Shown one piece after another: positions 45,090-50,939 of a stretch of DNA of 64,000 nt. This DNA comes from Sistotremastrum niveocremeum HHB9708 (Eukaryota > Basidiomycota > Agaricomycetes > Sistotremastrales > Sistotremastraceae): contig KV419422.1 in assembly GCA_001630475.1 (NCBI GenBank), positions 1-64,000 of the forward strand. Direction: 5' to 3'. The position numbers and the translations under genes were made by a program. The notes under the pieces were generated by a model. That model had not been told where the DNA came from and ran no database searches. It saw nothing but the letters and a program-made list of their open reading frames with translations. The first letter of the stretch is position 1. Each line of letters begins with the position of its first letter.

Positions 45090-46174
45090 ATGGGTAATGA
45101 TGGTGGCAGTATCCCAGACAGGCGTGATCTAGTAAAGAGCAAGCCTAAGGTATGTTGACATGTTTCTAATATGTCGACGTCTAAAATTCTCATCAATTCT
45201 CCAGGCTGAACAAGCCGATAAGGCGAATCAGGTCAGAGCCCGTTGGGGCTTCTGCGCTCTGTCTAAGGTATGTCGTTGAAGCCAGCTCATTATGCAAAAC
45301 TTCATTATATTCTCTTTCAGAAACCCCTTCAGGAGCCTGTAGTATCTTGTGCTCTTGGTCGATTGTACAATAAAGACGCAATCATCGAATTTCTGCTGGA
45401 TCGAAATGTGTATGGCGATGGTGACGACATATGCGGGCATGTGAAGTCATTGAAAGTGTGTCACCTGAGCATAACCCACCATTAATTCTCTAACATGTCT
45501 TATAGGACGTCAAAACGTTGACCCTGACACCCAATCCTGTCAAGGCATCGTCGTCCGATGATGTCGACATTCCTCCCGCTGCATTTGTATGCCCGTTGAC
45601 CATGAAAGAGATGAACGGAGCAGTGCCTTTCCTGTACATCACTACCTGTGGATGCGTCTTCTCTCAGGCGGGCCTAAAGGCGGTCCTCGGCCCATCACCT
45701 CAGGCGAAGGCCGACGGTCAAGAACCCGGCACTCGCGAGAAGGACTTGTGCCCTCAGTGCACAAAGAAATTTGACCGTGTGGAGGACCTCTGTACCATCA
45801 ACCCCGGTCCCGAGGAAGAGGAAATCATGATGGAAAAGTTGGCAGCTGCGAGAGCCTCTAAAGCCAAATCTGGCAAGAAGCGAAAGGCAGCCGTGGCTGA
45901 GATCTTCGACACGAAGGACAAGAAGCGAGAAAGAGTCGTGGCCCCCAGCACTAACCCTTCAATAGCGGCATCATCGCGTATTGTTGTGGAAGGCCTGGCT
46001 GAAGAGGAGAAGAAGCGATTAGCTCATATGAGCGATGCCGTCAAGAGCTTGTATCAAGGCAAGAGTACAAAGGCAGATTCAAATTGGATCAGTCGTGGTA
46101 CATTCACTAGAGTACGTGTCACTCCTTTGTCATTGAGCTCATGCTGATGCTTGTTTTTGATTTAGTATGCATGA
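45090..46174 (+). CDS. RTF2: Replication termination factor 2 (RTF2), RING-like
   Basis: RTF2 acts at stalled replication forks and, in S. pombe, at the mating-type fork barrier. Starts MGNDGGSIPDRRDLVKSKPK; the MGNDGGSIPxRxxLV start is diagnostic. Then AEQADKANQVRARWGFCALS and KKPLQEPVVSCALGRLYNKD. The U-box/RING-like region is AAFVCPLTMKEMNGAVPFLY then ITTCGCVFSQAGLKAVLG and KDLCPQCTKKFDRVEDLCTI. The C-terminal part is charged (AKSGKKRKAAVAEIFDTKDK) and ends MSDAVKSLYQGKSTKADSNW, then SRGTFTRYA. The last exon is only nine coding bases (TAT GCA TGA at 46166-46174), placed by the conserved FTRYA end. About 300 residues, normal length. Confidence 0.93.
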
Positions 46175-46716: not shown

Positions 46717-48526
46717 ATGGGCTCATGTATGTCCACTAATGATGACCCCGAGGCGGCCAGGCTTAATCGGGTGGCGGAAAAGGAGTTGAAGGAGGTGAGA
46801 TCTCTTCTCGTTATCCGAGAACACTCCTTCTAATACTCTGAATGTTCAGACAAAGGTCAAACGGGATCTAGAAGTCAAGGTTCTCCTTCTGGGATCCGGC
46901 GATAGCGGGAAGTCTACGATTATCAAGGTTCGGCCTGTCTTCTTCATTTCGTAAAGGGCAGTCGTCGAGTGATGCAATGCGTTATTTCAGCAAATGCGTG
47001 TGATCCATGGTGTTCGATGGCCACCCGAGGAAGTTGAGAATTTCCGACATCAAGTGTTCAACAACCTCGTTTTCGGCTTGAAAGAAGTTCTGGACGCTTT
47101 AGAGTACTTCGAACTTGAGCTCACGGAGGAAAACAAGGTGCGATCTTATTCAGTTGACTTCATGTCCATGCTTTCGAGCTCATCAATCCCCTCTCCTTAG
47201 CAATATGTGCCTTTGTTCGAATCACCCCCTGACATCAAGGACAATGAACCCTTTCCCATGGAATATTTGGAACCCTTGCAGAAACTTTGGGCTGATCCAA
47301 CCATTCAAAAAGCATGGGTCAGAGCAAACGAAGCTGCTTTGCCGGAGAAGTACGTTCACCGCTGTCCTTCATACGCTCATTTCTCATCTATGTTGCAGCC
47401 TAAGCTAGTACGTTGACCTTTCATGCAACGCTACAGCATATTGATATCCTACAGTTTCTTCCCCCAACTGGACCGCCTGTTTTCTCCGGCCTACGAGCCT
47501 ACTGATCAGGTATGCATATAGCACTTCACGATCTATCAGCTCACCCAAATGACCACTGAAGGATATCATCCGGACCCGAGTGCGCACGATCGGGGTTCAG
47601 ACTACCTCGTTTAGTCTGAAGCCCCAGACAATGATCATGGTTGATGTGGGAGGTATGACCGTCCAATATCTCCTCGAGCTTTACTGAGCAACAATATTTA
47701 GGCCAAAAGTCTGAGCGACGGAAATGGATTCACTGCTTCCAGGATGTCACCTCGATATTGTTCCTAGTCTCTCTTAGTGGATATGATCAGTGTCTAGTGG
47801 AAGATAAGGATGCTGTAAGTGACCCTCTCTATCGAACAGTGAGTCCGTTGCTGAAAATCGGGTGCGAATCTTAGAACCAGATGATGGATGCGATGACGAT
47901 ATGGGATTCAATATGTCACTCCCAATGGTTCAAGAACACCTCCGTCGTAAGTGACACTCCGATACCTCTTCGAATTTTCTTTCACGGTGAATCAGATCCT
48001 CTTTCTGAATAAACAAGATCTGTTTGAGGAGAAGATCAAGCATTCGCACATCAAGAACACCTTCCCGGTAAGCTTTTCCGTAATCGCATATCACAATCAC
48101 ACTCATCGCTGGTTCCGCTAGGACTATGAGGGTCCGACTGGGGATGCTCACGAGGGCAAGGAATACTTCAAAAAACGATTCTTACGGTTATCACAGAAGG
48201 GCGGGCGGCCCAAAGAACGAGAGATATATGTACAGTCAGTGTAAAATCTTCCACCGTGGAATCCGCCCTCACCCTTGCCAGTTTCACCACCGCTACTGAC
48301 ACGGAAATGTTGAGAGTTATCATGGCTGCTGTTGAAGGTCAGTTCTCATCATGCCGCTGTTCTTGCACGCACTGATCTTCTTTCTAGAGTAAGTCTTGAT
48401 TTGTTCATTTCATTCTCAAACCCCCCTTTTCGCCTGTAAATTGTTGCTCTTATGCCCACCTTTCACACCTCCATTCTTTCCAGTATTGCGTTGCGGGGCA
48501 ATCTCGAAAAGGCGGCACTGATCTGA
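46717..48526 (+). CDS. GPA: Heterotrimeric G-protein alpha subunit
   Basis: Membrane GTP switch coupling receptors (for example pheromone receptors) to effectors. Starts [20 protein letters not shown]: Gly2 and Cys4 fit N-myristoylation and palmitoylation. P-loop [20 protein letters not shown]; helical domain [20 protein letters not shown]; switch [21 protein letters not shown] with the conserved Arg; switch [36 protein letters not shown] (NKxD); [20 protein letters not shown] (TCAT box). The tail is [14 protein letters not shown] and stop at 48524-48526. It needs two micro-exons: 9 nt (47399-47407), completing ENLSYFF, and 1 nt (48388), completing the Asp of VEDIALRGNL. Without them the frame or motif is lost. 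About 12 introns. All GTPase motifs intact; it has no C-terminal Cys four residues from the end, so it is not a pertussis-toxin-type Gi. Confidence 0.95.
47399..47407 (+). other. GPA: 9-nt micro-exon in the G-alpha gene
   Basis: Flanked by introns 47350-47398 (GTACGT..TTGCAG) and 47408-47454 (GTACGT..CTACAG). Exon CCTAAGCTA, with split codons on both sides, gives [13 protein letters not shown], matching the conserved N-L-x-Y-F-F segment of G-alpha proteins. Confidence 0.88.
48388..48388 (+). other. GPA: Predicted single-nucleotide exon in the G-alpha gene
   Basis: Upstream exon ends GTTGAAG at 48337. Intron 48338-48387 is GTCAGT..TTTCTAG. The single base A at 48388 is followed directly by a perfect GTAAGT donor. 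Intron 48389-48483 ends TTTCCAG. The next exon begins TATTGCG. The Asp codon GAT of [16 protein letters not shown] is thus G, A and T from three exons. Direct joining without the A shifts frame and ends in an unrelated stop. Confidence 0.78.
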
Positions 48527-49533
48527 CTTATGCTTTGCTTTATTTCTGCCCTTCCCATCGATTGTTTTCGTTTATCGCTATCTCGATCTCGTCGCCTCGA
48601 TTTTCTTGGCCGAACCTGCACTTTCGTTTGATACGTAACTGTCTTTCCTTGTTCCCGTCCCTGCCATCGCCTGTCTTTCTTTGGATATCCGACTTCTCCC
48701 AACGACCAAATGATCATCGTTACATAAACCTCATTCTGCTGTATCCATATCACCATCTCTGGTCCTCCGTACATCACCGTAGTACGATCGTCACAAATAA
48801 TGTGAGTGGATTTTCTCGACACCCCTTGATGTCATTAACGCCAAGTATCGGCATACAGATCCGGAGTGCTATGTTGTAGGTGACCTTGGATTGTTTTCAC
48901 TTCATTCCCTTCTTGAAGGGTTGTATGACGTTCGTTCCCACTTTCTAAGATTATAGATGCCCTTTCTTTCGCGGATTGTACGCTATTTACGGCGCTGGCA
49001 GGGGTTCCTTTCAGTGTAATGGGTTCAAACTATCAGATAGAGATATGTGTAATTATAATGGTCATGGGATGTACAAAGAAGATCAGGGCATTAGGGTTTC
49101 GCTAATCGAGATGAAAGATAAACCAAAAGTGTAGTTGCCGATGTTGCCCTCTGCCCTCTCCACGCTGTCCCGGACTGACTCGTCTTCTCGAACTTGTTAT
49201 CTGGGAACATAGAAACACAGCCTCTGTTGTTTCATCACCCAATTGGCCAATTGAGAGTTTCGACATTGTGTGCTCGTGTGATAGCCCTACACCCAGGGTA
49301 CGAGGGCATCCACACTTTTGTATATAGAAGTAAGAAGCCTTCGCCGCCGAACCTAATTACCTCCTGCCTCAAAGAGGGGTTCTGCCTTAGCTCGCTAACA
49401 AGCCTCTCCACAGGAGTTCCCAGTCTTGCTTAGTCTTGTCTATTAAATTCCTATTCGCCGACATACCCTGACGCCCTAACTTATCACTCATTATCATCTA
49501 TCTCAATCAATCATACCAACGTGACCATCTACC
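48527..49533. other. Intergenic region of about 1 kb
   Basis: Between the G-alpha stop and the PP2C start. Pyrimidine-rich stretches occur at 48535-48720. No frame with recognisable similarity and no repeat is seen. It likely contains the G-alpha 3' UTR and the PP2C promoter and 5' leader (CAATCAATCATACC before the ATG). Confidence 0.5.
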
Positions 49534-50939
49534 ATGACATCGTCGCCTACAGATGAAGGTCAGCTCGGACAAAGAGGATTCACCGATATGGGGTGGGGGC
49601 CTGAGGCTGGAGGACCGTGGCCGTATCGGATTCTCGAGGAGCCTGTTCTTTCACAGAAGTTGGAGAAGTATGCGAACGCCGAGACTGTTGCTGGGGGTAA
49701 AGTGGACATTGTCACTTTCCAGCCTTGCGGAGTCGAGAGCGAGAGCAGTCAGGATCGGTTAGCTGCTCAGGAATGGGAGCTCCCTAATGGTACTTGGACA
49801 TTTACTGCTGTCTTCGATGGTGAGTCTCCTTTATTTCCTCTTTTGGTGGACTAGTTGCTCATGGTTGCATATAGGACATGCGGGACACGAAGTTGCCGAC
49901 CTTACCTCCAAGGTCTTTCCCGGAAAGCTGAAAGCCGTTCTTGACGGTCTCTTTACCAGAGATCCCGAAGGCGTCGTCGAGGAGCCCACTGTCGACCAGG
50001 TATCCAATGCACTGTCCCAAACCCTTATTTCGTGGGATGACGAAATTGTTGCCGACTTCCTTGCTTTGTTCCCTGGCGGCGTAGAGCAAGCCGAAAATAT
50101 GCCGGTCGAAGAGATCAAGGCACTCATCAACGATACCGACAGAGGTGGCGAGAATCATTACAAAGTAATGAAAGCCATTAGGGGAAGTACCGCCTTGCTT
50201 TCTCTTGTTGATCCCAAGGGCGAGAATCTGTGGGTCGCTAACTTGGGCGATTGCCAAGCCAGTATGTGTTCAACGCGTGTATTCTAAGTGAGTGACTGAC
50301 TTGATGCATTAGTTCTTGCTTCTCAGGATGAAAATTCCGCTTGGAAGGCGACTCTTTTGACTCAAAACCACAACGGCGAAAATGAGGAGGAAGTTGCGCG
50401 CGTGCAAAATGAACACCCCGGAGAACATGAAGCAATCTTGAATCAAAGAGTTCTGGGTGCTATTGCAGTCACACGAGGTATGTCCCATAATTAGTTGCCA
50501 TCGTTCTTGCTAACCGTCTGATCTAGCGCTGGGAGATCATGAGTTCAAGCTTCCTGCCATCTACACCCAACGCGTTTTCCTAAGCGCAGAGCCGGGTTTC
50601 CGCGTTCACAGTCGCGTGGAAGACTTCATCGCTCGTTCTTTCACACCTCCGTATCTGTCCAACGTCGCGGACATTCACCATCAGAAGCTCACCGACACGG
50701 ATAAATTCATCCTTTTATGCTCGGATGGATTGAGTGATCTGTATCGCGGCCAACCTGAAGGTCCAACTGAATGGATCAAGGCGATAACTGATGGAGATCG
50801 CAAGGAAACTAATCGAGCGTTGAGGGTCTTGCGAGCTGCTATAGGGGGCGACGATAATGAGGTAGTATCGAGGCATTTGACTCTCGAGCTTATGTCCAGG
50901 TGGATGGACGATACTACTATCCTCGTTCATACTTTCTAA
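49534..50939 (+). CDS. PP2C-family Ser/Thr phosphatase (pyruvate-dehydrogenase-phosphatase-like)
   Basis: Metal-dependent protein phosphatase. Starts MTSSPTDEGQLGQRGFTDMG. Conserved elements: SSQDRLAAQEWELPNGTWTF, then TAVFDGHAGHEVADLTSKVF (the VFDGHxG metal motif), RGSTALLSLVDPKGENLWVA, NLGDCQAILASQ, LLTQNHNGENEEEVARVQNE, RVLGAIAVTRALGDHEFKLP, FILLCSDGLSDLYRG and WMDDTTILVHTF at the end. The long insert between the metal motif and GSTA and the RALGD(H/x)xFK motif resemble PDP/Ptc5-type phosphatases. There is no obvious mitochondrial leader, so a cytosolic role is as likely. The usual final DNxT is DDTT here. Three introns; about 420 residues. Confidence 0.88.

Follow-up and report, generated by a model that had tools for sequence, protein, structure and literature searches.

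Locus and gene model

The window analysed here is the stretch of 64,000 nucleotides at the start of contig KV419422.1 of Sistotremastrum niveocremeum HHB9708, a fungus now named Sertulicium, in the order Sistotremastrales. Its genome of 34.7 Mb is assembled in 111 contigs. On the + strand of the window, at 46717-48879, lies a G-alpha gene that is GPA4/GPA2-like. Depending on which of two ends is used, called tail A and tail B below, the corrected model has 14 coding exons (tail A) or 15 (tail B). Introns in the model measure 47-63 nt, except around the 3' end of the gene. The features are collected in Table 1.

The translation of the corrected model carries the GTPase motifs and is a full-length member of the G-protein alpha subunit family (PF00503). 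Scores are available for a model without a 9-nt exon: 376.4 bits for PF00503, where the cut-off is 48.8, and 293.6 bits for the Gq structure 6vu5_B. That model reads a spurious NILISYSFF, and is superseded by one in which a 9-nt micro-exon is flanked by introns of 49 and 47 nt. The first-pass annotation was right on the identity of the gene and lacked this micro-exon, which is already part of P0001, the protein of 354 residues deposited for the same strain. P0001 and the corrected model are identical at 353/354 positions. The sole mismatch is the codon that is the subject of this work, where P0001 has Gly and the model has Asp.

The upstream neighbour (45506-46147) is an Rtf2-like gene at 98.4 bits, and the downstream neighbour (49525-50287) a PP2C-like phosphatase at 22.2 bits. 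The genome also contains about a dozen further G-alpha-like loci (L009-L020), several of them strongly diverged; L020 looks ARF-like. By eye, the matching codon is unbroken in seven of the 11 other loci viewed (L009, L010, L011, L012, L014, L016 and L019). L013, L015, L017 and L018 gave no clear reading, and L020 was left out.

Table 1 Features of the G-alpha gene, in positions of the window
Feature	Positions	Strand	Basis
Constant body, 12 coding exons	46717..48337	+	Spliced model and translation; re-found by spliced aligner with proteins of other species
Body exons 1-4	46717-46794, 46850-46927, 46991-47137, 47201-47349	+	Spliced model
Body exons 5-8	47399-47407, 47455-47509, 47562-47652, 47702-47814	+	Spliced model
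Body exons 9-12	47875-47946, 47996-48067, 48122-48234, 48282-48337	+	Spliced model
9-nt micro-exon CCTAAGCTA, part of ENLSYFF	47399..47407	+	Spliced model; picked in 80/80 spliced alignments
Intron 5' of one-base exon, 50 nt, GTCAGT...TTTCTAG, phase 1	48338..48387	+	Spliced model
Predicted single-nucleotide exon A, second base of Asp codon GAT	48388	+	Between TTTCTAG and GTAAGT
Intron to tail A, 95 nt, GTAAGT...TTTCCAG, phase 2	48389..48483	+	Spliced model
Tail A terminal coding exon, starts TATTGCG	48484..48526	+	Spliced model
Putative alternative intron to tail B, 394 nt, donor 48389 shared, acceptor ...CACCGTAG, phase 2	48389..48782	+	Inferred from tail B
Predicted tail B first exon, (D)TIVTNN	48783..48801	+	Tail-matrix score; 23/29 blind alignments
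Predicted tail B last exon, IRSAML-stop	48859..48879	+	Tail-matrix score; spliced model; blind alignments

Methods

Relatives were collected in three protein searches, giving 175 distinct proteins, the nearest relatives among the matches listed, all of which were used. Two of the searches gave the best 120 of 4,882 and the best 120 of 205 matches, the former queried with the model that lacks the 9-nt exon. Of these relatives, 95 are ncbi, nr or uniref records, where the contig, if given, is at least 25 kb long. The other 80 have jgi, lgn or ena as their only source, on contigs of 1,109-3,167 bases. Because they show uninterrupted frames of a 13-intron gene on such small contigs, these 80 are taken to be transcripts, presumably cDNA, and are called transcript-type.

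A donor matrix was built on the 14 donors of the gene model, with leave-one-out scoring. The 80 transcript-type proteins served as queries for a protein-to-DNA spliced aligner that allows any exon length and does not use splice-site scores. In the gap between exon 12 and the tail A exon, all single internal exons no longer than 60 nt were enumerated, given AG and GT borders, introns of at least 38 nt and a frame restored into the last exon. For tail B, a matrix was built from 17 known tail-B peptides.

A predicted one-base exon in the gap

Exon 12 ends in GTT GAA G and is in phase 1; the last exon, in phase 2, opens with TA TTG CG. This means that one base, or a number of bases equal to 1 modulo 3, is missing between them. 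A direct join of 48337 to 48484 is out of frame and yields another short tail, just as the first-pass annotation had claimed. That annotation also proposed the missing base, and all its positions are reproduced here: GTTGAAG ending at 48337, TTTCTAG ending at 48387, the A at 48388, GTAAGT at 48389-48394 and TATTGCG from 48484, with flanking introns that again measure 50 and 95 nt.

The A is a single base between an AG and a GT, with an intron on either side, and both the reading frame and a conserved protein motif depend on it. Five single internal exons restore the frame in the enumeration. Of these, one runs into a stop and three insert 4, 15 or 16 residues, which leaves the one-base exon as the only one to give VED and the tail free of stops or extra residues. 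Together with the Asp in 80/80 transcript-type relatives, this upholds the earlier claim that the A is needed for the Asp and for the C-terminus of the alpha-5 helix. That reading as a whole is supported, as a prediction for S. niveocremeum. Adding the one-base exon raises the Pfam G-alpha score from 373.8 to 376.4 bits, a small gain, calculated on the model without the 9-nt exon.

The pattern YAGNGTRAGT has two matches in the window when both strands are counted (48385 on +, 2343 on -), where shuffles lead one to expect 1.62. Scaled from the same shuffles, the chance of meeting it on one strand of the 146-nt gap is about 0.002. The other match in the window, CAGGGTGAGT, occupies 2343-2352 on the - strand.

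A predicted second C-terminus

Among the matches listed, transcript-type relatives end in two ways. A D-IVLRSNLETAALI-like end, tail A, is found in 51/80 (48 by pattern and 3 by eye), and a D-AIISKNIRTIML-like end, tail B, in 29/80. Both types follow directly on the Asp: all 12 sequences aligned as examples share VVMAAVED unchanged and diverge into the two types from the next residue on.

The window holds both tails. The first-pass annotation gave one C-terminus and overlooked the other, D-TIVTNNIRSAML, which is encoded in two pieces (48783-48801 and 48859-48879). With borders marked by slashes, its letters are AG/T ACG ATC GTC ACA AAT AAT/GTGAGT...ACAG/ATC CGG AGT GCT ATG TTG TAG. One locus has two intact ends, both in phase 2 after 48388, as in mutually exclusive last exons. 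The GAT is the last codon that the two predicted protein forms have in common.

The split tail B was first spotted by eye, and scored against candidate splices only afterwards. Candidate tails numbered 326 + 304 over both strands of the window, and the spliced tail B tops them with 32.5. Behind it come scores of 12.0 (the tail B start with another acceptor) and 9.3 (elsewhere in the window). A search of the window for an unsplit second tail gave a weak match of 14.2 at 48784, with chance matches elsewhere of up to 25.1.

In blind alignment, 23 of the 29 tail-B proteins run through 48388, 48783-48801 and 48859-48876. With the tail-B end of the window as query, a search yielded no more than 5 proteins. 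The tail ...GTIRDIML of P0164 (Lactarius tabidus) starts at the same exon border as the IRSAML exon. Tail-B proteins in genome records, among the matches listed, have Gly in place of Asp in 12/12 cases, which suggests that the same base was missed before tail B.

P0108 and P0112, both from Armillaria solidipes, have bodies that are 91.9% alike and one tail type each. They may be paralogues, alleles or isoforms.

It is conceivable that the one-base exon is real and tail B a remnant, or part of a different gene, in which case no tail is chosen here. The acceptor of tail B is weak, its pyrimidine tract being poor, and the intron, at 394 nt, far exceeds the 47-95 nt of the others. The tail is itself a prediction from the DNA letters, 6/29 tail-B queries miss the two tail-B exons, and the closest transcript-type relatives, P0002-P0005, all end in tail A.

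Even so, this explanation is rather unlikely. The frame, stop and phase of tail B are intact, four usable splice sites are present, and no other gene body lies 5' of it. Its score falls within the range of 25.1-39.9 of known tail-B peptides, the same ones that the matrix was built from. Pairs with the same body and different tails also exist among the relatives. P0065 (Suillus fuscotomentosus) and P0097 are 99.1% identical over 348 residues and could be close paralogues or come from related species; P0163 and P0129 are 96.4% identical over 390 residues and could be close paralogues too.

Donor strength and blind alignment

Scored leave-one-out, the 14 model donors range from 2.0 to 8.6, and the donor at 48389 scores 6.1. 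The spliced aligner picks the one-base exon blind for 73/80 transcript-type proteins of other species, with a margin of 0.4-2.0 points over the best alternative. The seven other queries choose the donor at 48342 (P0005, P0011, P0136 and P0055) or other joins (P0048, P0095 and P0105). Given the small margin and these seven, the spliced alignment test by itself would not decide the matter.

The donor at 48342 (GAAGGTCA/GTTCTC), the only other in-frame one to be weighed seriously, would remove the need for a one-base exon, replacing Asp by Gly-His. It is a canonical GT-AG solution and in frame, it is what those four queries prefer, and VEGxI...LR forms are found in the genome models of relatives (P0008, P0020, P0021, P0026, P0040, P0041 and P0065). 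It scores -4.2 however, having a T at +5 where 14/14 model donors have a G. In addition, 80/80 transcript-type proteins among the matches listed have Asp and no added residue, and the species' own deposited protein has no added residue either. The probability of this solution is put very low.

The Asp codon in relatives

Among the matches listed, Asp follows VE in 80/80 transcript-type relatives. The 95 genome or named-record relatives among the matches listed have Gly (62), a stop after VEE (22), other residues (10) or Asp (1). Asp plus a recognisable tail occurs in 0/95 of these; in P0146 the Asp is followed by an unrelated tail.

The window itself yields VEE-stop (GAG TAA) when the second intron is kept, from an in-frame TAA within the GTAAGT at 48389-48394. 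Since the 22 VEE-stop records match this product, they point to an A followed by GTRA in those genomes. At the level of protein records, the 62 VEG and 22 VEE-stop proteins among the matches listed fit the same arrangement in orthologues. Judging from these proteins and annotation errors, the TAG-A-GT arrangement would be conserved in the DNA of relatives, and related fungi probably share the one-base exon, which gene annotation has missed. Viral and prokaryote contigs, scanned for stretches from such relatives, contained none.

The species looked up among the 95 represent nine orders of Agaricomycetes: Sistotremastrales, Boletales, Jaapiales, Corticiales, Geastrales, Hymenochaetales, Gloeophyllales, Russulales and Hysterangiales. 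Agaricales and Polyporales are presumably also represented among the relatives.

P0063 (Flammulina filiformis, nr) ends at VEE. A gene called FfGa1, which may or may not be the one behind P0063, has been studied in this species and is mentioned in the available part of a review (PMC11121823).

VEE endings might also be taken at face value, with direct skipping or intron retention as the real outcome and a G-alpha that has no receptor-coupling end. This ending is found in 22/95 genome-record proteins among the matches listed, P0063 included. A VEE or skipped ending occurs in 0/80 transcript-type proteins among the matches listed, where the search might select against truncated forms by length, and the chance that this explanation holds is slight. 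An assembly or sequencing error, with a base lost at the exon border and a coincidental TAG-A-GTAAGT, is the least credible of all: there is only a single assembly, yet the motif has a chance of about 0.002 in the gap, and 95/95 genome-record relatives among the matches listed fail at the same codon.

Proposed mechanism

The preferred reading, given a probability of roughly 0.85, is that a constitutive one-base exon provides the second base of the Asp codon, and that its strong GTAAGT donor is then joined to tail A or tail B, making two proteins from one gene. The donor at 48389 would be joined to 48484 or, with tail A skipped, to 48783 and then 48859. Without the A, tail A is out of frame, and tail B is too, reading VEVRSSQIISGVLCCR. 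Keeping the second intron would lead to an immediate stop at VEE.

The C-terminal end of the alpha-5 helix of a G-alpha contacts the receptor. The two predicted proteins would differ only after the Asp, in the last turns of this helix and the receptor-contacting tip. A regulated choice of tail, and with it a changed receptor preference, is at least plausible for S. niveocremeum.

The one-base exon need not be recognised as a unit. Each short intron may be defined by itself, and the two removed in sequence. Exon 12 and the first intron both end in AG, and the donor context AGA/GTAAGT is therefore unchanged by removal of the first intron. To the extent that the letters tell, neither order of removal would spoil the donor. 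Folding predictions for the RNA of 48338-48782 show no more stability than those for shuffles (z +1.81; 97/100 shuffles fold at least as well), and lend no support to a structure that would bring tail B near.

A broader version of this model would hold for all Agaricomycetes: a fixed and obligatory one-base hinge in GPA4/GPA2-like G-alpha determines the frame, with a donor that selects one of two receptor-coupling tails and whose TAA provides a built-in off form, VEE-stop, when the second intron is kept. The odds on this version are about even. If true, one G-alpha would be retuned between two receptor sets, or turned off, by splicing around a single base.

Significance

If the preferred reading is right, one-base exons are more than oddities of individual genes, and a signalling gene can retain one throughout a fungal class. 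Mushrooms that are tractable in the laboratory would then offer a natural system for studying how the spliceosome handles an overlapping acceptor and donor in genes with short introns. On the same condition, G-alpha records from this subfamily (95/95 genome-record proteins among the matches listed) would have a receptor-coupling end that is incorrect or absent, and the existence of two versions of that end would have escaped notice in work on mating and development.

Comparison with known systems

One-base exons are not new. The first-pass annotation knew of one case, that of APC11 in Arabidopsis (PMC4674806), which turns out to have company: plant VPS55 (PMC8831610) and CYP621A of Fusarium (PMC12940212) have one as well, and a placozoan mitochondrial one-base exon is reported (PMC5436844). 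A one-base exon or two tails in a fungal G-alpha gave no hits in the open-licence literature, which leaves out most subscription journals. What appears to be new here is that a G-alpha has a one-base exon, that the exon seems widespread in Agaricomycetes, and that two tails follow it.

As far as the available text of the papers on the plant cases goes (PMC4674806, PMC8831610), the G-alpha exon resembles those of APC11 and VPS55. Each is one base between an AG and a GTRAGT-like donor, needed for the frame and missed by annotation; the plant exons are conserved in relatives, and the G-alpha exon probably is too. The base in APC11 is also an A (PMC4674806). The plant exons have been proven with cDNA, RT-PCR and constructs, whereas the G-alpha exon is predicted. 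The G-alpha exon would lead into two alternative protein ends, where the same parts of those papers report none for APC11 or VPS55.

CYP621A is the fungal parallel, in the portion of PMC12940212 at hand. Here too the base is the middle one of a conserved codon, an exon in phase 1 has to be brought together with one in phase 2, and genome models are wrong at the exon. Unlike the G-alpha case, the base is a G, the exon is found in one genus, there are no alternative tails, and it is confirmed with reads.

The vertebrate GNAO gene, from what the accessible text of PMC5896119 describes, can end its coding region at the 3' side in two ways that change the receptor-coupling part, as this single G-alpha gene of the fungus would. 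GNAO swaps exon pairs 7-8, while the fungal gene would change only the residues after the alpha-5 Asp, by way of a one-base exon and in an independent lineage.

Finally, the excerpts of PMC8605326 describe recursive splice sites, or ratchet points, in which acceptor and donor are practically superimposed, much as they are here. A recursive site, or zero-nucleotide exon, was considered for this locus and rejected, as the A lies between the AG and the GT and is needed for the frame. Ratchet points leave zero bases in the mRNA, whereas the G-alpha gene would keep the one base that it needs.
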